Source of the DNA: Gordius sp. MW1
Taxonomy: Eukaryota > Nematomorpha > Gordioida > Gordea > Gordiidae
Reading direction: 5' to 3'
Assembly (NCBI GenBank): GCA_964036665.1
Contig: OZ038529.1
Span: forward strand, 11,602,060 to 11,666,059
Length of the DNA stretch: 64,000 nt
This document shows, piece after piece, positions 32,101-64,000 of this stretch (positions within the stretch are counted from its first letter, which is position 1; each line of letters opens with the position of its first letter). The notes beneath the pieces were generated by a model that had not been told where the DNA came from, did not search any database, and saw only the letters and a program-made list of their open reading frames with translations. The position numbers were made by a program, and so were the translations under genes.

Positions 32101-35100
32101 AAAATGGGGGTTTGGGGATTTTATAATGTCTTTATTGCGTAACCATCCTTTTGGAAAAAGTGAGTAAATAAGTGTGCGAGAGTGAGAGTGAGAGTGTGTG
32201 TTTTTACATTCTTCCCCTTGGCCTTTTATACCTTTCATTTATTGGCCCCGTTAACCTGGCTTGGCCTCCCTTATCGTTCTAGATCTGTCATCTTCAAGGT
32301 TTTCTGGCTTCTATGACCCCTTTTCGTTCCAAACCCTCCGGAACCCAAGTTTCTTCGATATTCCCAAGGACTAATTCCTTATAAGAAGAGCCTCTCTCTG
32401 TTCCAATTAATACTTCCAAGGCCCAATTCCCTATACGTCCCGTGCCCTCATACTTTTAGCGGTTTCTTCTAATAGTTCTGGGAGGTTTAGGAGGTAATAA
32501 AATCTCTGGCTTGGGATTGTATCCAATACGACACTTGGGTAATCCGTAAGCATAAATAACTCCTTTAAAATATTCATAGTTATTTTACCTGACATGGCAA
32601 AAACATTTTTGATTTAAAATCCGTCCAACCGGAATATGCATTTACGATTAACATAAAACGTTTCTTTTCAAAGTCAAAAAAGTCAACATGTATTCTCTTC
32701 ACGGAGATTTAAGAAGTGGCCATCTAGCCTTTTTATCCCTTCGCGGCATTTGTGCGTCCAGCTTAAAAAGCCCGCACTACCTGGCAAATTTTTCGATATC
32801 TTTGTTAATTTTTGGCCACCAGGCATATTGCCTAGCTAGTCCCTTCATTTTAACCATCCCTGCATGACCTTGATGTAAAACATTTAACACAACCTGCCGA
32901 AGTTTACTAGGAACCACTAACCTTTCATGTCTTTTTATCACGTCATCTTCCAAATACAATTCGTTTAAGACATGTAAAGGGTAATGGTATGAGTACCATC
33001 GTCCAAGCCAAGTAAAACATTTTAACTACACCAGGGTCTGCATCTTTCGGCTATTATGTCATTTAAATCCAAAATTGTAATTATGTTTATGACCTGTCCT
33101 CCGACAATTTCGCAAGATGAAGAATCATTTAAGCTTCGATGTCATCCGCGCCCAAAAGCGATAGTACATCAGCTAAATTATTGTCTTCACCTCTGCAATA
33201 TTTAAGAGTTAAGGTAAATTTCCTAACATACCTAGCCAACGTTGTAACCTACCAGACATTAGTAGTTGGTCGTTAGCCTTTTTGAATAAAGCAACTAGAT
33301 GTTTGTGATCCGTGACTACAGTAAACCATTTACCATTTTAATATTCGCGACATCGCTGTAATCCGTACATCATTGCTAGAGCCTCTCGTTCAATAACAAT
33401 ATAAAAACTCTATTTTTAATTGCTATGCAATTTATGGGCTCGTTTTTTGGTGTCCGTGTGTCCGTCCGTCCGTTGTCCGTCCGTTACCCTATCTATTTGC
33501 ATTGGGTATATTAGGTTATCGCTTTTTTAAATTAATGCATGAGAAAGAGGTGCCCCACCCCTCATCTCTATCTCCCTCGCTGTGTTATTTTTTAAATTAA
33601 TGCATAAGAGGTGCCCCACCCCTCATCTCTATCTCCCTCGGTGTGTTATATATAAGATTTGTTAAATTATCTATTATATATTAAACATAAATAAAAGTTG
33701 TTTACTTTTAATTGCTATGCAATTTAACTAGTTATATAATAAACATAAATAAAAGTTGTTTACTTTTAATTGCTATGCAATTTAACTAGTTTTTGTTATA
33801 TAATAAACATAGATAAAAGTTGTTTACTTTTAATGCTATGCAATTTAACTAGTTATATAATAAACATAAATAAAAGTTGTTTACTTTTTAATTGCTATGC
33901 AATTTAACTAGTTTTGGGGTTAGAATCCCGGAGTTTTTTTGACTCTTATGATTTTTCTTGTTACTATCATTGATAATAAGAATTTTTGGCCGTCCGCTGG
34001 CTGCTGACCAATGAAAAAAATGACCATTGGCCAAAATGTGAATCGAAATTATTTTTTTCGTTTTTTTTGACTATTATGATTGTTCCTGTTTCTACCATTG
34101 CTATTATGACTTTTTGGCCGTCCGCTGGCTGCTGACCAATGTTATATAATAAACATAAATAAAAGTTGTTTACTTTTAATTGCTATGCAATTTAACTAGT
34201 TTTTGGGTTAGAATCCCGGAGTTTTTTTGACTCTTATGATTGTTCTTGTTACTATCATTGATAATAAGACTTTTTGGCCGTCCGTTGGCTGCTGACCAAT
34301 GAAAAAAATGACCATTGGCCAAAATGTGAGTCCGAGTTTATTTTTTTCGTTTTTTTTGACTATTATGATTGTTCCTGTTACTACCATTGCTATTACGACT
34401 TTTTGGCCGTCCGCTGGCTCCTGACCGATGGAAAAAATGACCATTGGCCAAAATGTGAATCAAAATTATTTTTTTCGTTTTTTTTTGACTATTATGATTG
34501 TTCCTGTTCCTACCATTGCTATTATGACTTTTTGGCCGTCCGCTGGCTGCTGACCAATGGAATAAAATGCCCATTAGCCAAAATGTGATTCGAAAACTTT
34601 TTTTTCGTTTTTTTTTGACAATTATGAATTTATATCCACTTTTACCGTGTCCTGGCTGCTGACCAATGGAAAAAAATGACCATTGGCCAAAACGTGATTC
34701 GAAAATTTTTTCGTTTTTTTTACTCTTATGAATTTATATCCACTTTTACCGTGTGCTGGCTGCTGCTGACCAATGGAAAAAAATAACTATTGGCCAAAGT
34801 GAGCATCAAAATTTTTTTTCCGTTTTTTTGGCTATCATTGACTTATAGAGTATCTGTTGGTACTGACCAATAGAGAAAAAGTGACCATTGGCCAAATTTT
34901 TGATTTTTTTAATTTTGTTCAAATTCAACAAAAAATTTCTCCCACCAATTCTGCAAATTCTTAACATTGTGTTGTTTTATAATATAATGTTTGTTAGACC
35001 CATAATCACTAAAGGCCATAAAAACTAATGTAATACGCAACTAGATGCAAACACTAAATCTAACCCTAACCCTTGCCTATATTACATTTTGCCTTTATTA

Positions 35101-38100
35101 CATTTTGCCTATAATGGAAAATTTGTATAAATAATTAATTAATCATTAGGCATTTAATACCCCCCTATAGGCATTCTCGCCCCTTCCCACCTTTCTCGCC
35201 CATAAATTGCATAGCAAATATGATACATTTATACGAAGTACAGATGAGTCGTCCCCCCTTCCCTTCCCCTCTTCCCTTCCCCTCTTCCCTTCCCCTCTTC
35301 CCTTCCCTTCTCCCCCTTCCCACGAGGGCCGAAGGCCCGAGTTTAAGTATTTTAATTTACGTTTAAAATACAAAATAGGCTGTTCAATATTATCCTCGAC
35401 TTGACATAATGCGCCGCCGATGCTTACGTTCGGCGCATCAACTCATAAAAATTGTTGTTTGTCGGGGTTGTAACACCTTAACACGGGTTTAGTTAGCAAA
35501 ACATTTTTTAAATAATTAAAATTATCTCCAAGAGTTTCGTCTCATTTAAATAAAAGAGACTTTTTGGTCGATTCATATAACGGCCCGGCAAATTATAATT
35601 AATAAAGCGACTATAAATTTATTACGCCTAAAAATGACAATTATTAATGAATATATTAATATCTTTAATTGCCATAACTTTGTCATACTTAGGCTGAATT
35701 ACCATCAATGTAAATATGACCTAAATATAGGACATCCTCAGTTCCACAAAGGCATTTTTTAGCTGAAACTTTTAATCCTTTTGCTTTAATTAAATCAAGA
35801 ACTTTTATTAGGCGCATACTGTGTTCTTATTTAGTTATGCCAGTGAATAAAATGTCGTCTAAATAAATTATTAGGCCGTCTATATTACTAAAAATATAAG
35901 CCATTGTTTGTTGAAAAATAGCGGCTGAAACGCTTAAGGATCCGGCATCAGTATTAATTGCTAAAACCCGTGACGACCTTTTGTCTACCTTAAATTATAG
36001 GTACGCTAGCCAAATCTATTTTTGAAAAAATTTAGATTCCTGTAATTTAACGAAAATTATTTCTAACCTCGGCGAGCGGGTATTTTACTTGAATAATATA
36101 TTTATTAACCGTAACTCTATAATCAGCCCAGACTCTTACCGTTCCGTCAGGTTTCCTGACCGGTACTTAAGGTGTAGTCCATTTCGAATAATCTATGGGT
36201 TCAATCACCTCGTCTTTAAGCCAATTTTTAACAAAGCTATTTCACATCGCGCGTTTGAGTGCTCCAGATGTGAATTATACAATAGTAAAGGGATAGCCAC
36301 ATGGGCGTAACCAGGAATCGAATTAAAGGGGGGCATTAATAATTTAGGGAGGGACAAAATATATTTTTTTATAAATTCTAGCCATATTTGATAAAATTTT
36401 TAAGAGTATTTGGATTTAAATGGGGGCAGCCACCCTCCCTGCCACCCCCTGGCGACGCTTATGGGTAGCCGCAATATCGTAGTAGGGGGGAGGGAATATT
36501 TATAACGTGGGGGAAATAGGGGGGGGGGGATACCACAATCGCTTCTTTTATTGTCTTTAAGTTATAAAATGCATTTCTACATTTAAAAATGTGATGTTAG
36601 CAATATTTGTATGAATGATTCAACATCTTAAACTTATTTAAATTAGACTTTATTTATCCAAAACATATATTGGGAATTATTAAAACTTATAAGATGTTTG
36701 ACAAAATTACTTTTCCATTTGGGCATTTTTTGAATCCAAGTCACCGGACATTAAATGAATTTATAATATTATTGTCATGTTCTTTTAAAAAACGTTTTAT
36801 ATATAATTTAATTTTGGACCCTAGTAAAGAATACTTTTAAGAGATTTATTAACAAATACTCCTGCTAATAAATCTCTTAACTGTTTTATGATATGTGTAT
36901 TTTTATAATATCATAAGATAATCTTGCTTGCGTAGTTTGAAAATTTATTACCTAATCAGTATATCTTCAAATATAATTGCTATACAGGTCAGATGAAATC
37001 GAAAGAAATAGCTCAAACCATATTTCCCTTAATCATGAAAAACATGCAAAAGTATTTACGCGTCACGAAACAACAGGCCTATTACAGCATGAATACGATC
37101 ATGGAGCACCTCACCAATTGTATTAAATACGAAATGGGACCAAACGCTTTCACTCAATTATATTTAAACGAAGGTTTCTTTTCCTTTTATTAATTGTTTT
37201 ATTAGTGTTAAAGCTCTCACCAAACTTTAAAATTACACATACTGCTAACATTTTAAATTAAATATAGATCTTAAAAAGAATTTACGTGAAATGAGAAAAT
37301 TAATTGAATTGTTTGGTGTGCATATGTAATCACTAGTGATGGTGATTTGCTCCACTGTGGCTCTGCCCCCTCACAAGCACTGTGTATCCTAATCTACTCA
37401 TGAATAGGATACAGTATCAGATGAAAATGCTCGAGAGACGAAGGGGTAGTAGCAAAAAGTAACTCATGTATAGAGCTGTGTGCCTGAGCAGCATTATAAG
37501 CTAAACAGATCTAATATGAGCAAATGCTATGAGCAAGCAGTTTCTCTAAACTGCTCATAGCTTCTCATCTATCATAATGTGATAATTAAAGCCTGATTTG
37601 TTTTAGTAGATTCTGTTGTTCAACAATAAATATGGCTATTTGAATAAGCGTAAGTAGGATTTCCTCAAGGGGGGAGGGATAAAATTTTAAGATAAAATTT
37701 TTTTGTAACTATTTTTTTGGGGATCTAAATGTTTTGTATTCTAAAAGTTTAAAGTGATATTCGCTTAATAATAATAAAATACAAAAAGTAAAATTCCAAC
37801 AAATTTTTTTTATAAATATACAATGTAACAATTATATAAATTGAAAATCATGGGAGGGGTTCTAACCGGAAAACCACCCCCTCCCTACGCCATTGGCTAT
37901 TTGTTATGAATTTATATTTTTTATGGCGAATTTTTTTTTGCCATTTTTTTATAAAATATGTTTAATGATATTAAAATTTATTTTTTATACATGCCAAGAA
38001 TTTATTTAATTATAAATTTTTGAATTTTCTGTTTCACCCAGATGGTAATAATTTTTTTGATATTTTAATATGGTTTAACTTTATATTTTATCGTTTTTAA

Positions 38101-41100
38101 GAACAGGTGTCAATGTTATAATTTTATTAAAGATGCGAACTAATTTTTTTTTTCGATTTTGATTATATATATCTAAAATGATTTTTAAAATTTATTTTTC
38201 ATAAATGGCGAAATTATGTTTTATTGTATAAATATTTTTTAGACATTTTTAATATGACTTAATGTTTCTAAATTTATATTTAATAATATTTTTAGTCCAG
38301 GTCACAATTCAAGGTTTTATAAAAGGTGGGATATTTGGCTTTATAGTATAGAATATTCTATATAGATGGCTAAAATCTGTTTAATGATTTCAAAATTTAC
38401 GCCTTATGCCAAAATATGTTTGATTGTTTTTAATATAAATTCATGAATATGTCTCACCCAAATGCTAATAAATTTTTTGACATTTTTAATATGGTTTTTT
38501 AAGCCAGGTTACAATGTGATAGTTTTATTAAAGGTGTGAATTCATTTATTTTGGCAAAAGATTTTAAAATTTATTGTTTAAAACATGACAAAAATATTTT
38601 TATTTACATATATTTTATTCAGATGTCTTATATCTTTTTTAGTTCAAATTAAATAGACACCAAATCAGCATTATTTTTTTATTAAATCTCACCAAATAGA
38701 CACATAAATTACAACTAATATTATGTAAAATTAACATTTCCCCAAGACTTTACACACATAATTTGGGTAATCGTATTTGAGGATAAACGATTTCTTCTAG
38801 CCATAACAATATTTCCTGCCAAAGAAAACATTCGTTCACTCGGAACTGAAGTGGTGGACTGCCCTAAATAGTCTTTAGCCATTGCTGAGTGCGGGAAAGC
38901 GTGTCTCATTCACTTTCCACCATTCCAACACTGTATTCGTTGAAATGGGTGTCTCTTTCACCATGTTCCCGCGCCAACTGAGTTTGGCTAAAAAACGTTA
39001 TATTTAAAAATAGATAAATAATAAATTTACTTCTTTAAACGATTCAAAATTGTCATCGTATAATCCTGACTCACAGTCTTTATAGGGAAAGGAGTGACAT
39101 TCACATAACTGAGATGTAACGATTTGAGTTTTTCATAATTAGCTATTAAAAGAGAAACAATTAATATGTTTTGCATATTAAATTTACCTGCGGTATTAAT
39201 CCCCGCCGGAAGAACGCTCTTCTTTATCCTTGGGTCTAAATACCCGGCGACATAGAAATTAAAGGTTTCGTATTCATTCAAATATTTAAGACATTTAAGG
39301 TGCAAGACTTGACATGCATCTTGGAATATAGGGTCAGCCAGAAGGATTTTTTCCTCTATTTGGTTATATAAATCCTTAATATATATTAAGGTCATGGCAA
39401 CTGTGGGACTGGTATTGGAACTGATGAGATTCGTGACATTTTAAATGGTAAAAAAACAACTCAATTTTTTCCAATATATTGAATTCCTCAATCGATATTT
39501 GTATCCCATCAGAGAGACTACAAAGTTCATTTATTTTTGTGTAAATCTAAAATTGGTTAGTAAATTATACTATTATTTAATTATACTTTATTTATCAGGG
39601 TTAACATGAGGTAGGTGCTATTTCACCTTGTTGAGCTTGAGACATCAAGGTGTAAGGGTCCCGCAAGCCCCTTAAACCTTTGCAAAAACTGCGGGAATGT
39701 TTGCAATTTACGGACGAAGTCATGGACTTTCTCCAAATGGGGAGAGAGCGATACAGACCGGATATTGCTATAATATTTACCGTATGGGCCAAACAACGAA
39801 TGTTGTAACATTCATTTTGGTGGGTATCTTTCAACAATTGTGCGATTTCTCACGATGCATTCACTACATTACCCCCATTATCGTGTGTAATGGTGAGTAA
39901 CTTTCGGGACAGCCCATGCTCGTTTAAAACTTTCAGAATTAGATGTCGTATGTCTCCCGATCGATGTGGATAAGGGAAATCCACAAAAGCGAGAAAATAA
40001 TTCTCCAGCTCCCAATCCTCATTCACAAAATGCATTGTTACGGCACAAAATGTTGTTGAATTTATGGCTGTCCACAAATCAGTACTGATACTGATTTTAC
40101 TTTTAAGGGCCTCAATTTTGGCATTTAATTTCATCTTTCATTCATCATATACGGCTTTTAAATTGTTTATTGCCGTTTGACGGCACCATATTTTTGCGGT
40201 TTTATTTAGGTATGTATAAGTATTTTTGAAAGTCACATCAGTAAATAAAGAGATTGGGAGGTAATTATCTACTATTACTTTCAAATTTTGCATATTTAAG
40301 TGTTTGTTTTCTTATAAAGTCATTTTTTTTGAGCCAATAAGGATTTTTTGTTCGATATTGTTTTCAATGTTAATAGCAGGATGATTTGTTTTAAAGTGTT
40401 TTCGCAAAGTCGCTTTTAATTTTTGAATCAAAAATAAAACGTCTAATAAAATTTTTAATATATAATGTTGCGCTATTAATTAAAAATTCAAAAAAAAATT
40501 CGGTAGACAAATATTAACCGCCCTCCCCTTAAATAAAATCATACACCAGACACAGTTATTTAAGTAACATAAATAATTACGAATAGCCATATAAGATAGA
40601 TAAATATATAAAATACTTATTTAATTTAATAAATATGGCCATGTCGGTGATCCAAAAATATGAAAATAGATCGCTTAAAACAATTTCTATAAGAGTATTT
40701 ATAGATGTGTTGCTGGAATATTTTCTGGAACAGTCCTGGCAGGTCTTGTGCCCTTTGGTAGGGGTCATTGGAAATTTGGAATGTATTAAGCTTCTCCTTT
40801 GTTGTGCTTGTGGCTCTGGTGTCGACTAAAAATTGTAATATTATTTAACAAAATTATAAAAGTACAGATCTCTCCTGAGGAACTTGTGAAGAAATCTCCA
40901 ATATTGACTCATCTGTTAACGAATTATTTGCCATAAAAATTTTTGGTTAAGGGAATAATAAAATGTGGAGAGAGGAGGACTTTTTAAAATAAGAATAACA
41001 ACTTTTCATGCTATGAGAGACAGGGACGAGGATAGGCGATATGTCACATAAGAAATAAGTAATTAACACATTTGCTGAGCAGATTAAATTAGCGCAACAT

Positions 41101-44100
41101 TATATATTAAAAATTTTATTAGAAGTTTTATTTTTTATTCAAAAATTAAAAGCGACTTTGCGAAAACACTTTAAAACAAATCATCCTGCTATTAACATTG
41201 AAAACAATATTGAACAAAAAATCCTTATTGGCTAAAAAAATGACTTTATAAGAAAACAAACACTTAAATATGCAAATTTTCAAATTAATAGTAGATAATT
41301 ACCTCCCAATCTCTTTATTTACTGATGTGACTTGCAAGAATACTTATACATACCTCATTAAAACGGCAAAAATATGGTGCCGTCAAACGGCAATAAGCAA
41401 TTTAAAAGCCGTATATGATGAATCACAGATGAAATTAAATGCCAAAATCCAGGCCCTTAAAAGTAAAATCAGTATCAGTACTGATTTGTGGACAGCCATA
41501 AATTCAACAACTTTTTGTGCCGTAACAATGCATTTTGTGAATGAGGTTTGGGAGCTTGAAAGTTATTTACTCGCTTTTGTAAATTTCCCTTATCCACATC
41601 GATCGGGGGATATTCAACATCTCATTCTCAAGGTAATAAACGAGCATGGGCTTTCCCGAAAGTTACTCACCATTACACATGGGGGTAATGTGGCGGGAAA
41701 TCGCAAAATTGTTGAAAGATACCCATCAAAACGAATGTTTCAACATTCGTTGTTTGGCCCATACTATTAATATTATTGCAAGATCCAGCCTTGGAGAAAG
41801 TCCATGACTTCGTCCGCAAATTGCATACATCCCCGCAGTTTTTGCAAAAATTTAAAGGGTTTGCGGGACCCTTAATTCCCCTTAATGTCTCAAGCTCAAC
41901 AAGGTGAAATAGCACCTACCTCATGTTAATCCTGATAAATAAAGAATAATTAAATAATAGTATAATTTATATACCAATTTTAGAATTACAAAAAAATAAA
42001 TGAACTTTGTAGTCTCTCTGATGGGATACAAATATCGATTGAGGAATTCAATATATTGAAAAAAATTGAGTTTTTTTTTCGTTCTACAATGTCACGAACT
42101 TATCAGTTCCTATACCAGTCCCACAGTTGCCATGGCCTTAATATATATAAAATATAACCAAATAGAGGAAAAAATCCTTCTGGCTGACCCTATATTCCAA
42201 GATGCATGTAAAGTCATGCACCTTAAATGTCTTAAATATTTGAATGAATACGAAACCTTTAATTTCTATGTCGCCGGGTATTTAGACCCAAGGATAAAGA
42301 AGAGCGTTCTTCCGGCGGGGATTAATACTGCAGGTAAATTTGATCTGCAAAACATATCAATTGTTTCTCTTTTAATAGCTAATTATGAAAAACTCAAATC
42401 GTTACATCTATGTGGATGTTATTCCTTTTCCGATGGAGACTGTGAGTCAGGATTATACAATGACAATTTTGAATCGTTTAAAGAAGTAAATTTATTATTT
42501 ATCTATTTTTAAATATAACGTTTTTTAGCCAAACTCAGTTGGCGCGGGAACATGGTGATACAAGAGTACGAGAAAGAGACACCCATTTCAACGAATACAG
42601 TGTTGGAATGGTGGAAAGTGAATGAGACACGCTTTCCCGCACTCAGCAAAATGGCTAAAGACTATTTAGGGCAGTCCACTTCAGTTCCGAGTGAACGAAT
42701 GTTTTCTTTGGCAGGAAATATTATTACGGCTAGAAGAAATCGTTTGTCCTCAAATACGATTACCCAAATCATGTGTGTAAAGTCTTGGGGAAATGTTAAT
42801 TTTACATAATATTAGTGTAATTTATGTGTCTATTTGGTGAGATAAAATAAAATAATAATGCTGATTTGGTGTCTATACTTTAATTTGAACTAAAAAAAGA
42901 TATAAGACATCTAAATAAAATATATGTAAATAAAAATATTTTTGCCATGTTTTAAACAATAAATTTCAAAATCTTTTGCCAAAAAAATAAATTCACACCT
43001 TTAATAAAACTATCACATTGTAACCTGGCTTAAAAAACCATATTAAAAATGTCAAAAAATTTATTAGCATTTGGGTGAGACAGAATATTCATGAATTTAT
43101 ATTAAAAACAATCAAACATATTTTTGGCATGTATAAAGGCGTAAATTTTGAAATTATTAAACAGATTTTAGCCATCTATTATATAGAATATTCTATATCT
43201 ATAAAGCCAAATATCCCGCCTTTTATAAAACCTTGCATTGTGACCTGGACTAAAAATATTATTAAAGATAAATTTAGAAACAGTAAGTCATATTAACAAT
43301 GTCAAAAAATATTTATACAATAAAACATAATTTTGCCATTTATGAAAAATAAATTTTTAGAATATTTTAGGTATATATAATAAAAATCGAAAAAAAATTA
43401 GTTCGCATCTTTAATAAAATTATAACATTGACACCTGTTTTTAAAAACGATAAAATATAAATTTAACCATATTAAAATATCAAAAAAATTATTACCATCT
43501 GGGTGAAACAGAAAATTCAAAAATTTATAATTAAATAACTTGGCATGTATAAAAAATAAATTTTAATATCATTAAACATATTTTATAAAAAAATTGCAAA
43601 AAAAAAATTCGCCATAAAAAATATAAATTCATAACAAATAGCCATTGGCGTAAGGAGGGGGTGGTTTTCCGGTTAGAACCCCTCCCATGATTATCAATTT
43701 ATATAATTTTTACATTGTATATTTATAAAAATATTTGTTGGAATTTTACTTTTCGTATTTTATTATTATTACGCGAATATCACTTTAAACTTTTAGGAAA
43801 CAAAACATTTAGATCCCAAAAAAATAGTTACAAAAAAATTTGATCTTAAAAATTTGATAACCCCCCCCCCCCCCCATTGAGGAAATCCTACTTACACCTA
43901 TTCAAATAGCCATAATTATTGTTGAACAACAGAATGTACTAAAACAAAACAGGTTTTAATCACATTTTGATAGATGAGATGCTATGAGCAGTTTAAAGAA
44001 ACTGCTTGCTCATAGCATTTGCTCATATTAAACTGTTAGTTAACTTATAATGCTGCTCAGGCACACAGCTCTATACATGAGTTACTTTTGCTACTACCCC

Positions 44101-44521: not shown

Positions 44522-44846
44522 AAAATCACACCGGATTTTACATGTTCATAAAATATACCAGAGTGAATAAATTTTTTTGTAAAATTACAAGATCCGTTGA
44601 GTTGACTTAAGTTGATAGCGTGTTTGAAGCAAAACAGAGCTTTGGGATAATGACCGTTGGTATTACTATAAAATTCTGATGCTGATCCTTGTTCTATTCT
44701 TTATTTTATATTCCCTAATGTAATATTTGTCTTTCCCTCTTCCTCAATAATTAATTTGAAAAGTTTGATCAATCCTACAATTTACTGTTCCTAATGACGA
44801 AATATAAAAAGAAAGTTTATACCTCAAATATAATCTAACTAAACTA
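44522..44846 (+). other. Vangl 3' UTR and flank
   Basis: AATAAA at 44566-44571, 45 bp after the stop codon, is a plausible polyadenylation signal and is duplicated at 58066-58071. Confidence 0.5.
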
Positions 44847-45326
44847 AAGACCTGGCGGGCCGGCCCGCTTTAAAAAATAGAGGACGAGCCCTAATATGGC
44901 CTAAAGGCCCCTTACAAACTCTTTTAATTGCTATTTGTGAATTTAAATAAAGAAAAAACAAAGGTATGTTTTTATAATGTTTATACATTATATTTATTTA
45001 ATATTACGATGAAAATTAGATTACATTCTCTTTTTATTCATTGATTCATCAGAATCTCAACGCATTTCAAATTTATTAGTGGTAAATAGCGATTTTATAT
45101 AAACTTAATCCACTCTTGGCTAAAATATTATCTTAGAAAGGGGGGAGGGGCTGCACATTAGGTACGCTCTAAGCAGATATTTTTTATCGAGTTTGGTTGA
45201 TTCTGACCCCGGGTCGGGCTGCTTCATCAAGCCCTATCCGAGCTAGAGGCTTGATTATCATATTGAATTTTGCCCGAGTCCGCCCCGAAACTCTCTCGAG
45301 CTTCGGGCGGCCGGTGCAGGGCTCTA
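44847..45326. mobile_element. CGGG-ended hAT MITE relative, unit 1
   Basis: The right end GGTGCAGGGCTCTA matches the inverted end of 15958-16550; subterminal CGGGCGGCC, CCGGGTCGGGC and GGCGGGCCGGCCCGC blocks are present. No clear target duplication, so the left border is approximate. Copy at about 58348-58827. Confidence 0.55.
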
Positions 45327-45819
45327 CATGCATGTAATTATTATCATTTGGATATTATTTGTATTTAATAATGACGGCAAAATGCTTTGACTATTCATTA
45401 CACCCTTATTAGTCTAAACAAAATTAACATCAAAAACTTTTATTTGCAATGAAGGTCTCAAGGTAATTATGTATCTATATCCAAGACAGATTTGTCCCTA
45501 GAGGGAAATATGTGTTTCAAAACAATTATTAATTGCTATAAATATATATATAATCTGAAACATTAAATGAAAGCCTACATCAATTAGTTATTGCAGTCCC
45601 GCTGCCCCGCAGAGCCCCTTATTAATATAAGAGATCTGTTGGTGAAAAAGTATATGCTTGTAGAGAGGTAGTTGTAATGCCTCGAGTGACAATTACAATA
45701 CCGCAAATTGGTTTTAACGTAGCATCGTTTTTTCTGTATACACGGTTTTTGGTTTAGATCCCGATACCCCTTTCTAACGTTGATTATAATTATACTGCGT
45801 TCAACAGTGGCGTCGTGAG

Positions 45820-49806: not shown

Positions 49807-49807
49807 A

Positions 49808-50489: not shown

Positions 50490-50675
50490 GTCGGATGAAA
50501 TCGAAAGAAATAGCTCAAACCATATTTCCCTTAATCATGAAAAACATGCAAAAGTATTTACGCGTCACGAAACAACAGGCCTATTACAGCATGAATACGA
50601 TCATGGAGCACCTCACCAATTGTATTAAATACGAAATGGGACCAAACGCTTTCACTCAATTATATTTCAACGAAG
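50490..50675 (+). CDS. VANGL: Duplicated Vangl exon 4, unit 2
   Basis: A 186-bp exon with the same TATACAG acceptor, phase 1 at both ends, and the same donor as 36988-37173. Encodes the conserved [16 protein letters not shown] block. Two residues differ from unit 1: Gln to Arg at the codon before MKSKEIAQ, and Leu to Phe in QLY(L/F)NEG. Because it is phase-symmetric it could be spliced in place of, or after, the first copy without shifting the frame. Whether it is transcribed cannot be told from sequence. Confidence 0.85.
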
Positions 50676-52220
50676 GTTTCTTTTCCTTTTATTAATTGTT
50701 TTATTAGTGTTAAAGCTCTCACCAAACTTTAAAATTACACATACTGCTAACATTTTAAATTAAATATAGATCTTAAAAAGAATTTACGTGAAATGAGAAA
50801 ATTAATTGAATTGTTTGGTGTGCATATGTAATCACTAGTGATGGTGATTTGCTCCACTGTGGCTCTGCCCCCTCACAAGCACTGTGTATCCTAATCTACT
50901 CATGAATAGGATACAGTATCAGATGAAATGCTCGAGAGACGAAGGGGTAGTAGCAAAAAGTAACTCATGTATAGAGCTGTGTGCCTGAGCAGCATTATAA
51001 GCTAAACAGATCTAATATGAGCAAATGCTATGAGCAAGCAGTTTCTCTAAACTGCTCATAGCTTCTCATCTATCATAATGTGATAATTAAAGCCTGATTT
51101 GTTTTAGTAGATTCTGTTGTTCAACAATAAATATGGCTATTTGAATAAGCGTAAGTAGGATTTCCTCAAGGGGGGAGGGATAAAATTTTAAGATAAAATT
51201 TTTTTGTAACTATTTTTTTGGGGATCTAAATGTTTTGTATTCTAAAAGTTTAAAGTGATATTCGCTTAATAATAATAAAATACAAAAAGTAAAATTCCAA
51301 CAAATATTTTTTTATAAATATACAATGTAACAATTATATAAATTGAAAATCATGGGAGGGGTTCTAACCGGAAAACCACCCCCTCCCTACGCCATTGGCT
51401 ATTTGTTATGAATTTATATTTTTTATGGCGAATTTTTTTTTGCAATTTTTTTATAAAATATGTTTAATGATATTAAAATTTATTTTTTATACATGCCAAG
51501 AATTTATTTAATTATAAATTTTTGAATTTTCTGTTTCACCCAGATGGTAATAATTTTTTTGATTTTAATATGGTTTAACTTTATATTTTATCGTTTTTAA
51601 GAACAGGTGTCAATGTTATAATTTTATTAAAGATGCGAACTAATTTTTTTTTCGATTTTGATTATATATATCTAAAATGATTTTTAAAATTTATTTTTCA
51701 AAAATGGCGTAATTATGTTTTATTGTATAAATATTTTTTAGACATTTTTAATATGACTTAATGTTTCTAAATTTATATTTAATAATATTTTTAGTCCAGG
51801 TCACAATTCAAGGTTTTATAAAAGGTGGGATATTTGGCTTTATAGATATAGAATATTCTATATAGATGGCTAAAATCTGTTTAATGATTTCAAAATTTAC
51901 GCCTTATGCCAAAATATGTTTGATTGTTTTTAATATAAATTCATGAATATGTCTCACCCAAATGCTAATAAATTTTTTGACATTTTTAATATGGTTTTTT
52001 AAGCCAGGTTACAATGTGATAGTTTTATTAAAGGTGTGAATTCATTTATTTTGGCAAAAGATTTTAAAATTTATTGTTTAAAACATGACAAAAATATTTT
52101 TATTTACATATATTTTATTCAGATGTCTTATATCTTTTTTAGTTCAAATTAAATAGACACCAAATCAGCATTATTTTTTTATTAAATCTCACCAAATAGA
52201 CACATAAATTACAACTAATA

Positions 52221-53980
52221 TTATGTAAAATTAACATTTCCCCAAGACTTTACACACATAATTTGGGTAATCGTATTTGAGGATAAACGATTTCTTCTAG
52301 CCGTAACAATATTTCCTGCCAAAGAAAACATTCGTTCACTCGGAACTGAAGTGGTGGACTGCCCTAAATAGTCTTTAGCCATTGCTGAGTGCGGGAAAGC
52401 GTGTCTCATTCACTTTCCACCATTCCAACACTGTATTCGTTGAAATGGGTGTCTCTTTCACCATGTTCCCGCGCCAACTGAGTTTGGCTAAAAAACGTTA
52501 TATTTAAAAATAGATAAATAATAAATTTACTTCTTTAAACGATTCAAAATTGTCATCGTATAATCCTGACTCACAGTCTTTATAGGGAAAGGAATAACAT
52601 TCACATAACTGAGATGTAACGATTTGAGTTTTTCATAATTAGCTATTAAAAGAGAAACAATTAATATGTTTTGCATATTAAATTTACCTGCGGTATTAAT
52701 CCCCGCCGGAAGAACGCTCTTCTTTATCCTTGGGTCTAAATACCCGGCGACATAGAAATTAAAGGTTTCGTATTCATTCAAATATTTTAGACATTTAAGG
52801 TGCAAGACTTGACATGCATCTTGGAATATAGGGTCAGCCAGAAGGATTTTTTCCTCTATTTGGTTATATAAATCCTTAATATATATTAAGGTCATGGCAA
52901 CTGTGGGACTGGTATTGGAACTGATGAGATTCGTGACATTGTAAATGGTAAAAAAAACAACTCAATTTTTTCCAATATATTGAATTCCTCAATCGATATT
53001 TGTATCCCATCAGAGAGACTACAAAGTTCATTTATTTTTGTGTAAATCTAAAATTGGTTAGTAAATATACTATTATTTAATTATACTTTATTTATCAGGG
53101 TTAACATGAGGTAGGTGCTATTTCACCTTGTTGAGCTTGAGACATCAAGGTGTAAGGGTCCCGCAAGCCCCTTAAACCTTTGCAAAAACTGCGGGAATGT
53201 TTGCAATTTACGGACGAAGTCATGGACTTTCTCCAAATGGGGAGAGAGCGATACAGACCGGATATTGCTATAATATTTACCGTATGGGCCAAACAACGAA
53301 TGTTGTAACATTCATTTTGGTGGGTATCTTTCAACAATTGTGCGATTTCTCACGATGCATTCACTACATTACCCCCATTATCGTGTGTAATGGTGAGTAA
53401 CTTTCGGGACAGCCCATGCTCGTTTAAAACTTCCAGAATTAGATGTCGTATGTCTCCCGATCGATGTGGATAAGGGAAATCCACAAAAGCGAGAAAATAA
53501 TTCTCCAGCTCCCAATCCTCATTCACAAAATGCATTGTTACGGCACACAAAGTTGTTGAATTTATGGCTGTCCACAAATCAGTACTGATACTGATTTTAC
53601 TTTTAAGGGCCTGGATTTTGGCATTTAATTTCATCTTTCATTCATCATATACGGCTTTTAAATTGTTTATTGCCGTTTGACGGCACCTTATTTTTGCGGT
53701 TTTATTTAGGTATGTATAAGTATTTTTGAAAGTCACATCAGTAAATAAAGAGATTGGGAGGTAATTATCTACTATTACTTTCAAATTTTGCATATTTAAG
53801 TGTTTGTTTTCTTATAAAGTCATTTTTTTTGAGCCAATAAGGATTTTTTGTTCGATATTGTTTTCAATGTTAATAGCAGGATGATTTGTTTTAAAGTGTT
53901 TTCGCAAAGTCGCTTTTAATTTTTGAATAAAAAATAAAACGTCTAATAAAATTTTTAATATATAATGTTGCGCTATTAAT
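52221..53980 (-). pseudogene. hAT transposase, left arm, unit 2
   Basis: Copy of 38721-40480. The dimerisation tail reads NIVTARRN instead of NIVMARRN in unit 1. Same block order and interruptions. Confidence 0.8.
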
Positions 53981-54589
53981 TAAAAATTCAAAAAAAAATT
54001 CGGTAGACAAATATTAACCGCCCTCCCCTTAAATAAAATCATACACCAGACACAGTTATTTAAGTAACATAAATAATTACGAATAGCCATATAAGATAGA
54101 TAAATATATAAAATATTTATTTAATTTAATAAATATGGCCATGTCGGTGATCCAAAAATATGAAAATAGATCGCTTAAAACAATTTCTATAAGAGTATTT
54201 ATAGATGTGTTGCTGGAATATTTTCTGGAACAGTCCTGGCAGGTCTTGTGCCCTTTGGTAGGGGTCATTGGAAATTTGGAATGTATTAAGCTTCTCCTTT
54301 GTTGTGCTTGTGGCTCTGGTGTCGACTAAAAATTGTAATATTATCTAACAAAATTATAAAAGTACAGATCTCTCCTGAGGAACTTGTGAAGAAATCTCCA
54401 ATATTGACTCATCTGTTAACGAATTATTTGCCATAAAAATTTTTGGTTAAGGGAATAATAAAATGTGGAGAGAGGAGGACTTTTTAAAATAAGAATAACA
54501 ACTTTTCATGCTATGAGAGACAGGGACGAGGATAGGCGATATGTCACATAAGACATAAGTAATTAACACATTTGCTGAGCAGATTAAAT

Positions 54590-56309
54590 TAGTGCAACAT
54601 TATATATTAAAAATTTTATTAGAAGTTTTATTTTTTATTCAAAAATTAAAAGCGACTTTGCGAAAACACTTTAAAACAAATCATCCTGCTATTAACATTG
54701 AAAACAATATTGAACAAAAAATCCTTATTGGCTAAAAAAATGACTTTATAAGAAAACAAACACTTAAATATGCAAATTTTCAAATTAATAGTAGATAATT
54801 ACCTCCCAATCTCTTTATTTACTGATGTGACTTGCAAGAATACTTATACATACCTCATTAAAACGGCAAAAATATGGTGCCGTCAAACGGCAATAAGCAA
54901 TTTAAAAGCCGTATATGATGAATCACAGATGAAATTAAATGCCAAAATCCAGGCCCTTAAAAGTAAAATCAGTATCAGTACTGATTTGTGGACAGCCATA
55001 AATTCAACAACTTTTTGTGCCGTAACAATGCATTTTGTGAATGAGGTTTGGGAGCTTGAAAGTTATTTACTCGCTTTTGTAAATTTCCCTTATCCACATC
55101 GATCGGGGGATATTCGACATCTCATTCTCAAGGTAATAAACGAGCATGGGCTTTCCCGAAAGTTACTCACCATTACACATGGGGGTAATGTGGCGGGAAA
55201 TCGCAAAATTGTTGAAAGATACCCATCAAAACGAATGTTTCAACATTCGTTGTTTGGCCCATACTATTAATATTATTGCAAGATCCAGCCTTGGAGAAAG
55301 TCCATGACTTCGTCCGCAAATTGCATACATCCCCGCAGTTTTTGCAAAAATTTAAAGGGTTTGCGGGACCCTTAATTCCCCTTAATGTCTCAAGCTCAAC
55401 AAGGTGAAATAGCACCTACCTCATGTTAATCCTGATAAATAAAGAATAATTAAATAATAGTATAATTTATATACCAATTTTAGAATTACAAAAAAATAAA
55501 TGAACTTTGTAGTCTCTCTGATGGGATACAAATATCGATTGAGGAATTCAATATATTGAAAAAAATTGAGTTTTTTTTTCGTTCTACAATGTCACGAACT
55601 TATCAGTTCCTATACCAGTCCCACAGTTGCCATGGCCTTAATATATATAAAATATAACCAAATAGAGGAAAAAATCCTTCTGGCTGACCCTATATTCCAA
55701 GATGCATGTAAAGTCATGCACCTTAAATGTCTTAAATATTTGAATGAATACGAAACCTTTAATTTCTATGTCGCCGGGTATTTAGACCCAAGGATAAAGA
55801 AGAGCGTTCTTCCGGCGGGGATTAATACTGCAGGTAAATTTGATCTGCAAAACATATCAATTGTTTCTCTTTTAATAGCTAATTATGAAAAACTCAAATC
55901 GTTACATCTATGTGGATGTTATTCCTTTTCCGATGGAGACTGTGAGTCAGGATTATACAATGACAATTTTGAATCGTTTAAAGAAGTAAATTTATTATTT
56001 ATCTATTTTTAAATATAACGTTTTTTAGCCAAACTCAGTTGGCGCGGGAACATGGTGATACAAGAGTACGAGAAAGAGACACCCATTTCAACGAATACAG
56101 TGTTGGAATGGTGGAAAGTGAATGAGACACGCTTTCCCGCACTCAGCAAAATGGCTAAAGACTATTTAGGGCAGTCCACTTCAGTTCCGAGTGAACGAAT
56201 GTTTTCTTTGGCAGGAAATATTATTACGGCTAGAAGAAATCGTTTGTCCTCAAATACGATTACCCAAATCATGTGTGTAAAGTCTTGGGGAAATGTTAAT
56301 TTTACATAA
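54590..56309 (+). pseudogene. hAT transposase, right arm, unit 2
   Basis: Copy of 41090-42809 with the same deletion in the THGGNV segment. Differs by GDIRHL for GDIQHL. Confidence 0.8.
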
Positions 56310-57788
56310 TATTAGTGTAATTTATGTGTCTATTTGGTGAGATAAAATAAAATAATAATGCTGATTTGGTGTCTATACTTTAATTTGAACTAAAAAAAGA
56401 TATAAGACATCTAAATAAAATATATGTAAATAAAAATATTTTTGCCATGTTTTAAACAATAAATTTCAAAATCTTTTGCCAAAAAAATAAATTCACACCT
56501 TTAATAAAACTATCACATTGTAACCTGGCTTAAAAAACCATATTAAAAATGTCAAAAAATTTATTAGCATTTGGGTGAGACAGAATATTCATGAATTTAT
56601 ATTAAAAACAATCAAACATATTTTTGGCATGTATAAAGGCGTAAATTTTGAAATTATTAAACAGATTTTAGCCATCTATTATATAGAATATGCTATATCT
56701 ATAAAGCCAAATATCCCGCCTTTTATAAAACCTTGCATTGTGACCTGGACTAAAAATATTATTAAAGATAAATTTAGAAACAGTAAGTCATATTAACAAT
56801 GTCAAAAAATATTTATACAATAAAACATAATTTTGCCATTTATGAAAAATAAATTTTTAGAATATTTTAGGTATATATAATAAAAATCGAAAAAAAATTA
56901 GTTCGCATCTTTAATAAAATTATAACATTGACACCTGTTTTTAAAAACGATAAAATATAAATTTAACCATATTAAAATATCAAAAAAATTATTACCATCT
57001 GGGTGAAACAGAAAATTCAAAAATTTATAATTAAATAACTTGGCATGTATAAAAAATAAATTTTAATATCATTAAACATATTTTATAAAAAAATTGCAAA
57101 AAAAAAATTCGCCATAAAAAATATAAATTCATAACAAATAGCCATTGGCGTAAGGAGGGGGTGGTTTTCCGGTTAGAACCCCTCCCATGATTATCAATTT
57201 ATATAATTTTTACATTGTATATTTATAAAAATATTTGTTGGAATTTTACTTTTCGTATTTTATTATTATTACGCGAATATCACTTTAAACTTTTAGGAAA
57301 CAAAACATTTAGATCCCAAAAAAAATAGTTACAAAAAAATTTGATCTTAAAAATTTGATAACCCCCCCCCCCCCCATTGAGGAAATCCTACTTACACCTA
57401 TTCAAATAGCCATAATTATTGTTGAACAACAGAATGTACTAAAACAAAACAGGTTTTAATCACATTTTGATAGATGAGATGCTATGAGCAGTTTAAAGAA
57501 ACTGCTTGCTCATAGCATTTGCTCATATTAAACTGTTAGTTAACTTATAATGCTGCTCAGGCACACAGCTCTATACATGAGTTACTTTTGCTACTACCCC
57601 TTCGCCTCTTGAGCATTTTCATCTTATACATCAACAGCCTCATGAGTAGAGTAGGATACACAGTGCTTGTGAGGGGGCAGAGCTCACAGTGAGCAATGCT
57701 CATTGGAGCAAATCAATATCACTAGTAATCACCGTGATCACATTATTTTCATGATAAAATTTATCATTGAGATTTAATATTTATTTAG

Positions 57789-58021
57789 TTACACACCTTC
57801 ACAATTCTAAGGCAAAGGAAGATGTTGAAGAATGGGTCATCCTGAGTGAAAAGCCAGCGTCCGAAAAACTTAGCCAAAACATGGTTTTCCAACTACGACG
57901 TAAAGATGTCAAACTTTTAATCGAAGTTCAAGATCTTCCAAAATATATATTTAAACAACAGTTTTCACTCCACCATGCAACGAACAATCTTGTTATTATA
58001 AATTCCGAAAATATTGTATAA
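57789..58021 (+). CDS. VANGL: Duplicated Vangl exon 5, unit 2
   Basis: A 233-bp terminal exon identical in protein to 44289-44521: acceptor TTATTTAG, phase 1 start, [22 protein letters not shown] and the SENIV stop, followed by AATAAA. It could act as an alternative last exon, or together with the duplicated exon 4 be the remains of a partial gene duplication. Confidence 0.85.
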
Positions 58022-58347
58022 AAAATCACACCGGATTTTACATGTTCATAAAATATACCAGAGTGAATAAATTTTTTTGTAAAATTACAAGATCCGTTGA
58101 GTTGACTTAAGTTGATAGCGTGTTTGAAGCAAAACAGAGCTTTGGGATAATGACCGTTGGTATTACTATAAAATTCTGATGCTGATCCTTGTTCTATTCT
58201 TTATTTTAATATTCCCTAATGTAATATTTGTCTTTCCCTCTTCCTCAATAATTAATTTGAAAAGTTTGATCAATCCTACAATTTACTGTTCCTAATGACG
58301 AAATATAAAAAGAAAGTTTATACCTCAAATATAATCTAACTAAACTA

Positions 58348-58827
58348 AAGACCTGGCGGGCCGGCCCGCTTTAAAAAATAGAGGACGAGCCCTAATATGG
58401 CCTAAAGGCCCCTTACAAACTCTTTTAATTGCTATTTGTGAATTTAAATAAAGAAAAAACAAAGGTATGTTTTTATAATGTTTATACATTATATTTATTT
58501 AATATTACGATGAAAATTAGATTACATTCTCTTTTTATTCATTGATTCATCAGAATCTCAACGCATTTCAAATTTATTAGTGGTAAATAGCGATTTTATA
58601 TAAACTTAATCCACTCTTGGCTAAAATATTATCTTAGAAAGGGGGGAGGGGCTGCACATTAGGTACGCTCTAAGCAGATATTTTTTATCGAGTTTGGTTG
58701 ATTCTGACCCCGGGTCGGGCTGCTTCATCAAGCCCTATCCGAGCTAGAGGCTTGATTATCATATTGAATTTTGCCCGAGTCCGCCCCGAAACTCTCTCGA
58801 GCTTCGGGCGGCCGGTGCAGGGCTCTA
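58348..58827. mobile_element. CGGG-ended hAT MITE relative, unit 2
   Basis: Unit 2 copy of 44847-45326. Confidence 0.55.
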
Positions 58828-59319
58828 CATGCATGTAATTATTATCATTTGGATATTATTTGTATTTAATAATGACGGCAAAATGCTTTGACTATTCATT
58901 ACACCCTTATTAGTCTAAACAAAATTAACATCAAAAACTTTTATTTGCAATGAAGGTCTCAAGGTAATTATGTATCTATATCCAAGACAGATTTGTCCCT
59001 AGAGGGAAATATGTGTTTCAAAACAATTATTAATTGCTATAAATATATATATAATCTGAAACATTAAATGAAAGCCTACATCAATTAGTTATTGCAGTCC
59101 CGCTGCCCCGCAGAGCCCCTTATTAATATAAGAGATCTGTTGGTGAAAAAGTATATGCTTGTAGAGAGGTAGTTGTAATGCCTCGAGTGACAATTACAAT
59201 ACCGCAAATTGGTTTTAACGTAGCATCGTTTTTTCTGTATACACGGTTTTTGGTTTAGATCCCGATACCCCTTTCTAACGTTGATTATAATTATACTGCG
59301 TTCAACAGTGGCGTCGTGA

Positions 59320-60056
59320 GGTAAATTGGGTCGCGGCTATTTTTCAAAAAACAATGGATCAAATATTAAGAAACATAAAAGGAGTAGCAGTTTACATAAA
59401 CGATATACTAATTGCAGGTGAAACTGAAGAAGTCCACAACGAGCCGCTAGGTACTAAGAACTTTACAAAAGTGTGGGTTTGTGCCAAGCATAACCAAGAG
59501 CATCTTGTGGGCTAAGTAAGTAACATTTTTGGTATACGTAATCAGCAACAAAGGTACTCTAGAGTAATAAAACCGAACTAGTAACGCGATGGAAAAATGT
59601 GATAAATGAATATGAAATCGTTTCTTGGGTTAACATCATATTTTTTAATGTTCATTAAAACCACGCCAAAATCGTGCACCCTTTTCAAAAATTCATAAAA
59701 AAAACGTGATTTACCACTGAAATGGAGAACAACAAGCTGCATAGACGCTATCAAGTCTGCGCTTACTAAGGCTCCCGTGTTAGCATACTTTTTTGGAGAC
59801 ATGCCTCGTCGTATAATCATCAGTTACAGGGCTAGGGCCTATCTTACAACAACAAGCGTTAGGAGAAAATTGGTGGCATATGCTTCAAGAGCGTTAAGCA
59901 ATAGTGAAAGCCGATATTCAACGATTCAATAGGAGGCGCTGGCAGTGGTCTGTGGGTTGAAAATAAAAAAGTTTAATGAATATATACAAAGACGAAGCAT
60001 TACTATTATGACGGATCACCGCTAGTTTATATATTTTACCAAAGCAAAAGGGGCAT
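59320..60056 (+). pseudogene. Ty3/gypsy RT-RNase H fragment, copy 3, unit 2
   Basis: Unit 2 copy of 45820-46555 with the same YIND box and the same truncation at the unit junction. Confidence 0.75.
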
Positions 60057-60420
60057 ATTATGTCATTTAAATCCAAAATTGTAATTATGTTTATGACCTG
60101 TCCTCCGACAATTTCGCAAGATGAAGAATCATTTCAGCTTCGATGTCATCCGCGCCCAAAAGCGATAGTACATCAGCTAAATTATTGTCTTCACCTCTGC
60201 AATATTTAAGAGTTAAGGTAAATTTCCTAACATACCTAGCCAACGTTGTAACCTACCAGACATTAGTAGTTGGTCGTTAGCCTTTTTGAATAAAGCAACT
60301 AGATGTTTGTGATCCGTGACTACAGTAAACCATTTACCATTTTAATATTCGCGACATCGCTGTAATCCGTACATCATTGCTAGAGCCTCTCGTTCAATAA
60401 CAATATAAAAACTCTATTTT

Positions 60421-62470
60421 TAATTGCTATGCAATTTATAGGCTCGTTTTTTGGTGTCCGTCTGTCCGTCCGTCCGTTGTCCGTCCGTTACCCTATCTAT
60501 TTGCATTGGGTATATTAGGTTATCGCTTTTTTAAATTAATGCATGAGAAAGAGGTGCCCCACCCCTCATCTCTATCTCCCTCGCTGTGTTATTTTTTAAA
60601 TTAATGCATAAGAGGTGCCCCACCCCTCATCTCTATCTCCCTCGGTGTGTTATATATAAGATTTGTTAAATTATCTATTATATATTAAACATAAATAAAA
60701 GTTGTTTACTTTTAATTGCTAGGCAATTTAACTAGTTATATAATAAACATAAATAAAAGTTGTTTACTTTTAATTGCTATGCAATTTAACTAGTTTTTGT
60801 TATATAATAAACATAGATAAAAGTTGTTTACTTTTAATGCTATGCAATTTAACTAGTTATATAATAAACATAAATAAAAGTTGTTTACTTTTAATTGCTA
60901 TGCAATTTAACTAGTTTTTGTTATATAATAAACATAGATAAAAGTTGTTTACTTTTAATGCTATGCAATTTAACTAGTTATATAATAAACATATATAAAA
61001 GTTGTTTACTTTTTAATTGCTATGCAATTTAACTAGTTTTGGGGTTAGAATCCCGGAGTTTTTTTGACTCTTATGATTTTTCTTGTTACTATCATTGATA
61101 ATAAGAATTTTTGGCCGTCCGCTGGCTGCTGACCAATGAAAAAAATGACCATTGGCCAAAATGTGAATCGAAATTATTTTTTTCGTTTTTTTTGACTATT
61201 ATGATGGTTCCTGTTTCTACCATTGCTATTATGACTTTTTGGCCGTCCGCTGGCTGCTGACCAATGTTATATAATAAACAAAATAAAAGTTGTTTACTTT
61301 TAATTGCTATGCAATTTAACTAGTTTTTGGGTTAGAATCCCGGAGTTTTTTTGACTCTTATGTTTGTTCTTGTTACTAATTGATAATAAGACTTTTTGGC
61401 CGTCCGTTGGCTGCTGACCAATGAAAAAAATGACCATTGGCCAAAATGTGAATCCGAGTTTATTTTTTTCGTTTTTTTTGACTATTATGATTGTTCCTGT
61501 TACTACCATTGCTATTACGACTTTTTGGCCGTCCGCTGGCTCCTGACCGATAAAAAAATGACCATTGGCCAAAATGTGAATCGAAATTATTTTTTTCGTT
61601 TTTTTTTGACTATTATGATTGTTCCTGTTCCTACCATTGCTATTATGACTTTTTGGCCGTCCGCTGGCTGCTGACCAATGGAATAAAATGCCCATTAGCC
61701 AAAATGTGATTCGAAAACTTTTTTTTCGTTTTTTTTTGACAATTATGAATTTATATCCACTTTTACTGTGTCCTGGCTGCTGACCAATGGAACAAAATGA
61801 CCATTGGCCAAAACGTGATTCGAAAATTTTTTCGTTTTTTTTACTCTTATGAATTTATATCCACTTTTACCGTGTGCTGGCTGCTGCTGACCAATGGAAT
61901 AAAATAACTATTGGCCAAAGTGAGCATCAAAATTTTTTTTCCGTTTTTTTGGCTATCATTGACTTATAGAGTATCTGTTGGTACTGACCAATAGAGAAAA
62001 AGTGACCATTGGCCAAATTTTTGATTTTTTTAATTTTGTTCAAATTCAACAAAAAATTTCTCCCACCAATTCTGCAAATTCTTAACATTGTGTTGTTTTA
62101 TAATATAATGTTTGTTAGACCCATAATCACTAAAGGCCATAAAAACTAATGTAATACGCAACTAGATGCAAACACTAAATCTAACCCTAACCCTTGCCTA
62201 TATTACATTTTGCCTTTATTACATTTTGCCTATAATGGAAAATTTGTATAAATAATTAATTAATTATTAGGCATTTAATACCCCCCTATAGGCATTCTCG
62301 CCCCTTCCCACCTTTCTCGCCCATAAATTGCATAGCAAATCTGATACATTTATACGAAGTACAGATGAGTCGTCCCCCCTTCCCTTCCCCTCTTCCCTTC
62401 CCCTCTTCCCTTCCCCTCTTCCCTTCCCTTCCCTTCTCCCCCTTCCCACGAGGGCCGAAGGCCCGAGTTT
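60421..62470. mobile_element. Tandem-repeat-rich element, unit 3, expanded by one repeat
   Basis: As 33417-35344 but about 120 bp longer, through an additional pair of the ~60-bp CTATGCAATTTAACTAGTT units around 60840-60970. Confidence 0.7.
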
Positions 62471-63427
62471 AAGTATTTTAATTTACGTTTAAAATACAAA
62501 ATAGGCTGTTCAATATTATCCTCGACTTGACATAATGCGCCGCCGATGCTTACGTTCGGCGCATCAACTCATAAAAATTGTTGTTTGTCGGGGTTGTAAC
62601 ACCTTAACACGGGTTTAGTTAGCAAAACATTTTTTAAATAATTAAAATTATCTCTAAGAGTTTCGTCTCATTTAAATAAAAGAGACTTTTTGGTCGATTC
62701 ATATAACGGCCCGGCAAATTATAATTAATAAAGCGACTATAAATTTATTACGCCTAAAAATGACAATTATTAATGAATATATTAATATCTTTAATTGCCA
62801 TAACTTTGTCATACTTAGGCTGAATTACCATCAATGTAAATATGACCTAAATATAGGACATCCTCAGTTCCAAAAAGGCATTTTTTAGCTGAAACTTTTA
62901 ATCCTTTTACTTTAATTAAATCAAGAACTTTTATTAGGCGCATACTGTGTTCTTATTTAGTTATGCCAGTGAATAAAATGTCGTCTAAATAAATTATTAG
63001 GCCGTCTATATTACTAAAAATATAAGCCATTGTTTGTTGAAAAATAGCGGCTGAAACGCTTAAGGATCCGGCATCAGTATTAATTGCTAAAACCCGTGAC
63101 GACCTTTTGTCTACCTTAAATTATAGGTACGCTAGCCAAATCTATTTTTGAAAAAAATTTAGATTCCTGTAATTTAACGAAAATTATTTCTAACCTCGGC
63201 GAGCGGGTATTTTACTTGAATAATATATTTATTAACCGTAACTCTATAATCAGCCCAGACTCTTACCGTTCCGTCAGGTTTCCTGACCGGTACTCAAGGT
63301 GTAGTCCATTTCGAATAATCTATGGGTTCAATCACCTCGTCTTTAAGCCAATTTTTAACAAAGCTATTTCACATCGCGCGTTTGAGTGCTCCAGATGTGA
63401 ATTATACAATAGTAAAGGGATAGCCAC
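62471..63427 (-). pseudogene. Gypsy copy 2 RT/RNase H fragment, unit 3
   Basis: Unit 3 copy of 35345-36300. Confidence 0.75.
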
Positions 63428-63428
63428 A

Positions 63429-63591
63429 TGGGCGTAACCAGGAATCGAATTAAAGGGGGGCATTAATAATTTAGGGAGGGACAAAATATATTTTTTTATA
63501 AATTCTAGCCATATTTGATAAAATTTTTAAGAGTATTTGGATTTAAATGGGGGCAGCCACCCTCCCTGCCACCCCCTGGCGACGCTTATGG
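63429..63591. mobile_element. Short inverted-repeat MITE, unit 3
   Basis: Unit 3 copy of 36302-36464. Confidence 0.6.
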
Positions 63592-64000
63592 GTAGCCGCA
63601 ATATCGTAGTAGGGGGGAGGGAATATTTATAACGTGGGGGAAATAGGGGGGGGATACCACAATCGCTTCTTTTATTGTCTTTAAGTTATAAAATGCATTT
63701 CTACATTTAAAAATGTGATGTTAGCAATATTTGTATGAATGATTCAACATCTTAAACTTATTTAAATTAGACTTTATTTATCCAAAACATATATTGGGAA
63801 TTATTAAAACTTATAAGATGTTTGACAAAATTACTTTTCCATTTGGGCATTTTTTGAATCCAAGTCACCAAACATTAAATGAATTTATAATATTATTGTC
63901 ATGTTCTTTTAAAAAACGTTTTATATATAATTTAATTTTGGACCCTAGTAAAGAATCTTTTAAGAGATTTATTAACAAATACTCCTGCTAATAAATCTCT

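Follow-up and report, generated by a model that had tools for sequence, protein, structure and literature searches.

In the genome assembly of Gordius sp. MW1 the last two exons of Vangl are present in four head-to-tail copies behind one gene body, at the only Vangl locus that a search of the genome detects. This arrangement is very probably a partial tandem segmental duplication, ordinary in kind, which has grown by unequal crossing-over and in which the first unit is used while three spare ends lie behind it. The sequence analysed was a window of 64 kb (the whole stretch C3:11602060-11666059 of the 211.8-Mb, 12-contig genome assembly). Flanks amounting to 80 kb were added to give a 144-kb stretch, and positions beyond 64000 are continued window coordinates.

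The array and its extent

Comparison of the window with itself finds 33049-47418 repeated directly at 46551-60918, with 99.5% identity across 14.4 kb, and a third copy running from 60052 to the window end. Judged from the assembled sequence, the length and identity of these repeats rule out chance. When the unit is mapped onto the 144-kb stretch, four full units of 13.5-15 kb each are found from 33049 to 88664. Their three internal junctions are identical and the outer flanks differ at both ends of the array, as in a head-to-tail arrangement. The units are as follows, A and B being the two sequence types described below.

33049..46550, + strand: unit 1, type A throughout
46551..60051, + strand: unit 2, type B in its left part and type A in its right part
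60052..73670, + strand: unit 3, mapped past the window edge (the window holds 60052..64000)
73671..88664, + strand: unit 4, mapped past the window edge

Unit 3 has an extra 121-bp repeat. Unit 4 is longer owing to a 1.5-kb transposon-like insert that is present in this unit alone, pieces of which resemble other places in the 144-kb stretch at 81-90% identity. The initial annotation, made from the window letters, had described a 13.5-kb tandem amplification of the last two Vangl exons, and both the self-comparison and the unit mapping uphold it; the repeat starts that it gave (33053, 46556 and 60057) all lie within 5 bases of those found here. It was right that there are several exon sets, but its count of at least two, probably three, becomes four in the assembly once the genome is followed past the window. 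Its direct repeats also stand, but they are mosaics of A and B and not simple copies.

The Vangl gene

The exon borders of Vangl were predicted by means of open frames, splice sites and agreement with the protein family. Those within the gene body and the first two units are listed here.

17064..17457, + strand: exon 1, coding part (predicted); ATG at 17064, GT donor after 17457, open frame and in-phase splice sites
17557..19236, + strand: exon 2 (predicted); acceptor at 17557 or 17566, both in phase; Strabismus PF06638, E 3.1e-9
19711..20007, + strand: exon 3 (predicted); PF06638, E 1.5e-8
36988..37173, + strand: exon 4 of unit 1; 186 bp, phase 1-1, AG/GT borders, Q and L variants
44289..44521, + strand: exon 5 of unit 1, coding part and stop; AATAAA 44 nt after the stop
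50490..50675, + strand: exon 4 of unit 2; R and F variants
57789..58021, + strand: exon 5 of unit 2; identical to that of unit 1

Exons 2, 3, 4 and 5 each score above the curated cut-off of PF06638 (Strabismus), while exon 1, which lies outside this profile, has no Pfam match of its own. Joined via unit 1, exons 1-5 form an open frame of 926 or 929 residues, according to the acceptor used for exon 2. The C-terminal 245 residues of the predicted protein match Vang-like protein 2 in the PDB (E 5.7e-29). As a protein query, residues 470-926 gave no match at E 0.001 among the 7,996 candidates scored, which were those sharing most words. A PF06638 search of the whole genome returned ten matches, all at one locus: exons 2 and 3 were found once, exons 4 and 5 four times each. 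The Vangl identity proposed earlier, together with its correct splice phase, is confirmed by these matches and by the in-phase exon joins.

Exon 4 is intact in all four units, with the same splice borders and a phase-symmetric length of 186 bp, and exon 5 is open in all four, each copy having a stop of its own that is followed at 44 nt by an AATAAA. The claim that each unit carries both exons intact and in the correct phase is therefore borne out by the open frames and by the AG/GT borders of each copy. The copies are nearly identical. In exon 4, units 2-4 are identical to each other, and unit 1 departs from them at two codons, with Q in place of R and L in place of F; in exon 5, units 1-3 agree completely, and unit 4 carries two missense substitutions (V to I, H to N). 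Against PF06638, exon 4 scores 63.1 bits in unit 1 and 61.7 bits in units 2-4, and exon 5 scores 31.7 bits in units 1-3 and 30.4 bits in unit 4, all of which are small margins.

The predicted protein ends in ENIV (window 44510-44521), and the alignment to the solved Vang-like chain leaves out the final 17 residues. Vertebrate Vangl ends in the PDZ-binding sequence ETSV, which is not a defining feature of the PF06638 profile. The PDZ-binding end may be altered in this animal.

A mosaic of two unit types

How did two unit types come to be spread over four units? In an alignment of the four units there are 67 variable ungapped sites. Unit 1 alone deviates at 38 of these, all within 33050-41616 (the first two are at the junction itself, where edge effects may have produced them), and unit 4 alone deviates at 21, all within 42793-46191. 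The 38 and 21 private sites never interleave, for which the chance is 1/C(59,21) = 1.9e-16, as expected if the inner units are recombinant. Indels are arranged in a similar way. Unit 1 has fifteen of its own, none to the right of 39565. Unit 4 has nine of its own: eight, none of them to the left of 43363, and the 1.5-kb insert. Six show other patterns. Between the two blocks lies the inferred interval of exchange:

41617..42792, no strand: inferred crossing-over interval, 1,176 bp in intron 4, the longest stretch over which units 1 and 4 do not differ (the next is 522)

Since this interval falls inside intron 4, units 2 and 3 combine a B-type exon 4 with an A-type exon 5.

Selection on the exon copies

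Are the extra exon sets being maintained? A and B differ at four positions in 419 bp of coding sequence, and all four differences are missense. At the rate taken from the non-coding part, 1.3 missense changes are expected without constraint, and the probability of four or more is 0.04-0.05. With an omega of 0.1 on both copies the expectation falls to 0.13 (P ~1e-5). Because the four missense changes are far above this last value, strong purifying selection on both exon sets, A and B, is unlikely. When an older dispersed copy of these exons, described below, is used as an outgroup, both exon-5 changes are derived in B (unit 4); the Q/R site of exon 4 falls outside the coverage of that copy.

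Competing explanations

Which of the four sets ends the Vangl message? As a stop and a poly(A) signal come with every exon 5, the nearest set is most likely the one used, with the others as spares. We favour the following order of events. An illegitimate join of two retrotransposon relics would have duplicated in tandem a 13.5-kb segment with the last two Vangl exons, and copies A and B would then have diverged by ~0.4%. Unequal crossing-over in intron 4 would have yielded middle units that are B on the left and A on the right, giving the order A, B/A, B/A, B. Exons 1-3 are most likely spliced to unit 1, whose stop and poly(A) signal would end the message, and the three downstream sets would be promoterless spares under relaxed constraint. 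The four units with identical junctions, their mosaic structure, the intact splice sites and poly(A) signals and the single Vangl locus can be read directly from the assembly; we infer the use of unit 1, the disuse of the other sets and the order of events. The initial annotation had offered three outcomes: alternative tails, repetition of exon 4, or simply unused copies. The last is favoured by the stop and AATAAA of each set, by the single occurrence of exons 2 and 3 and by the all-missense differences, while the other two have no positive evidence.

Several observations do not sit easily with this account. Eight of the 67 variable sites show other patterns (unit 3 alone at three, unit 2 alone at two, units 3 and 4 together at two, units 2 and 3 together at one). 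One simple exchange does not explain the two-base change at 36746-36747, which is found in units 3 and 4 and not in unit 2, and which calls for an additional event, conversion for example. In exon 4 of unit 1 the L is derived relative to the dispersed copy, so that the presumed working copy has changed too, albeit towards the family profile. Fewer than two coding changes between A and B are expected, so the intactness of the exons in every copy says little. The selection test draws on small counts, in which missense changes are slightly more numerous than expected even without constraint.

Could the array, in whole or in copy number, be an artefact of assembly? A two-unit locus (A, B) might have been walked repeatedly, or two alleles joined end to end. 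A wrong walk round a two-unit repeat loop would give exactly the order A, B/A, B/A, B, the copy count could be off by one, and the apparent differences between units 2 and 3 could stem from variation between alleles. However, units 2 and 3 differ at seven substitutions and six indel events, among them the 121-bp gain in unit 3, the two-base change separates units 3 and 4 from units 1 and 2, and unit 4 alone has the 1.5-kb insert. Moreover, the identical stretch of just 1,176 bp can be spanned by long reads, and the array needs at least one true A-B junction. The artefact raised in the initial annotation is thus weakened by the differences between units 2 and 3 and keeps a small share of the probability; we regard it as unlikely. 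It is decidedly unlikely that the units serve as alternative 3' cassettes, in which the first poly(A) site is read through and exon 3 joins any of the four sets, or exon 4 is repeated. The preserved AG/GT borders and phase symmetry of the four exon-4 copies and the open frame of every exon 5 would suit such a use, as would the way in which units 2 and 3 pair an exon 4 and an exon 5 of different types. Yet the resulting tails would differ by at most four residues, the first site would have to be bypassed because every exon 5 has a stop and the same AATAAA, and the selection test gives no sign that the copies are being kept. A repeated exon 4 would also add 62 residues to the C-terminal region that can be aligned to solved Vang-like proteins.

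A related idea is that the array acts as a shuffling store, in which recombination in the long palindromic intron 4 re-pairs exon 4 and exon 5 variants and some message uses the distal sets, giving several tails or tails with a repeated exon 4. One such re-pairing, of a B exon 4 to an A exon 5, is already present, and on the sequence we would give this idea very little weight. The 17 kb of intron 3 and the palindromic insert of intron 4 might also impair expression, so that the gene is failing or a set other than that of unit 1 is used; this is extremely improbable. The length of intron 4, 7.1 kb in the array as against 171 bp in the insert-free dispersed copy, would fit this suggestion. Against it, this is the sole Vangl found by the genome search, exons 1-5 remain open through unit 1, and no other exon-4 copy scores as high as that of unit 1.

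Unit borders and the older dispersed copy

The right border of the unit falls within a broken pol relic of a retrotransposon (+ strand), the left border within another (- strand). The junction joins the two relics with at most a few bases of similarity, which suggests an illegitimate origin for the first duplication. The possibility that this duplication was made by the ends of the hAT-type insert in intron 4 was rejected, since the unit borders lie in the two oppositely oriented pol relics.

A dispersed fragment is found at C3:21845555 (L014 4996-5975), 10 Mb from the array. It comprises exon 4 in its 3' half, an intron of 171 bp, an exon 5 that has lost one base, and 3' flank, and aligns as two matches of 92% and 85% identity. 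A tblastn search of 90 kb around it found nothing of Vangl beyond residues 816-926. By its sequence the fragment is a broken older copy of Vangl exons 4-5. It was rejected as a second Vangl gene, being partial, carrying the one-base deletion, covering only those residues and going unreported by PF06638. When exon 4 is compared with the genome there are five matches, at the four units and at this fragment. For exon 5 with its 3' flank there are five strong matches among the 40 scored of 75 candidates, and the other 35 scored touch the query only from base 674, past the exon. The exon 4/5 set as a widely dispersed mobile cassette was also rejected, as the strong matches among those scored lie at the four units and the one old fragment.

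The insert in intron 4

Most of intron 4 in the array is taken up by a palindromic insert, which in unit 1 has the following layout.

37326..37333, + strand: target-site duplication, left copy, GTAATCAC, 8 bp
37334..44224, no strand: palindromic hAT-type insert, 6,891 bp, with two opposed ~3.1-kb arms, 91.7% alike
44225..44232, + strand: target-site duplication, right copy, GTAATCAC, 8 bp

GTAATCAC brackets the insert in all four units and has no + strand occurrence in the 144-kb stretch other than these eight places. The ends of the insert read TAGTGATNNTGATTTGCTCC, and it has both the 8-bp target-site duplication and the terminal inverted repeats looked for in hAT elements. PF14372 (hAT-like) scores 23.9 and 20.6 bits, below its curated cut-off of 27, in two of the three arm frames scanned, one per arm. 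The arm frames are broken and no transposase domain above the cut-off was found in the three frames scanned; the insert is described here as hAT-type and is not assigned as a member of hAT. The single 8-bp duplication lies outside both opposed arms; the pair of arms may have moved as one element.

The insert probably arrived after the dispersed fragment had split off, because intron 4 of the fragment is an empty site, and before the tandem duplication, because the insert is present in all four units.

Intron 3 has repeats of its own. A palindrome of 4.15 kb at window 25598-29747, 87.5% like its own reverse complement, adjoins retrotransposon-like open frames. Window 20477-22365 and 33411-35294 are inverted repeat copies, 96% alike and rich in tandem subunits; a 22-base piece of this repeat has 3,541 exact matches in the genome.

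Other apparent arrays in the genome

The end sequence of the insert has 37 exact matches in the genome, 17 of which fall in three regularly spaced sets:

Vangl array: eight matches
C5 at 16.88 Mb: five matches
C5 at 17.31 Mb: four matches

The four matches at C5:17311965-17391905 (L049-L052) are spaced by 25.6, 25.6 and 28.7 kb. In 2-kb samples the first three members of this set are 99.7-99.9% alike, and the fourth matches over 1.2 kb at ~99%. At least one further apparent large tandem array is thus suggested by the sequence, and such arrays would not be peculiar to Vangl. The five matches at C5:16880571-16896497 lie 3.9-4.2 kb apart, and are likely to mark a smaller tandem array. A retrotransposon pattern with 25 genome matches gave no regularly spaced set of three or more, two same-strand matches on C3 lying 4.8 kb apart. 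The spacing of both kinds of match was judged by eye at few loci, and the link of insert ends to regularly spaced sets is a weak lead that is not claimed here.

Comparison with known systems

A literature search on Vangl with partial duplication found no paper, and one on Vang-like with gene loss and genome assembly found nothing relevant, as judged by the listing. In the triplicate region of human NEB, each block has eight exons, which are internal and read in line, and in this the Vangl array differs. The two are alike in that the NEB region, in the excerpted text of PMC9109913, is an intragenic segmental duplication of several exons with few repeats; its unit is larger than 10 kb according to an excerpt of PMC11201333. 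The same excerpt describes the human LPA KIV-2 repeat, likewise a kilobase-scale tandem unit (~5.6 kb) with two short exons, mostly of 160 and 182 bp. Much of the LPA coding sequence consists of KIV-2 repeats, whereas the Vangl units are terminal, each with a stop, and cannot be read in line.

Among copy-number variants in 15 fly lines, partial duplications are 76% of the duplications, as given in the excerpted part of the review PMC3449122. As in the partial gene duplicates and young copy-number variants described there, the duplicated Vangl segment covers part of a gene. By contrast, the Vangl segment has been amplified to four in tandem and consists of a 3' end complete with a stop and poly(A) signal of its own.

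What does the array mean for Vangl and for genome annotation? It offers a clean example of the growth of a tandem array, with end units of type A and B, recombinant middle units, a mapped interval of exchange and, for the intron insert, an outgroup with an empty site. Annotators are also given reason for caution, as four intact sets of terminal exons behind one gene body can pass for alternative isoforms or extra genes. If the distal sets were used, the tail of a core polarity protein would vary with copy number, which would be unusual.

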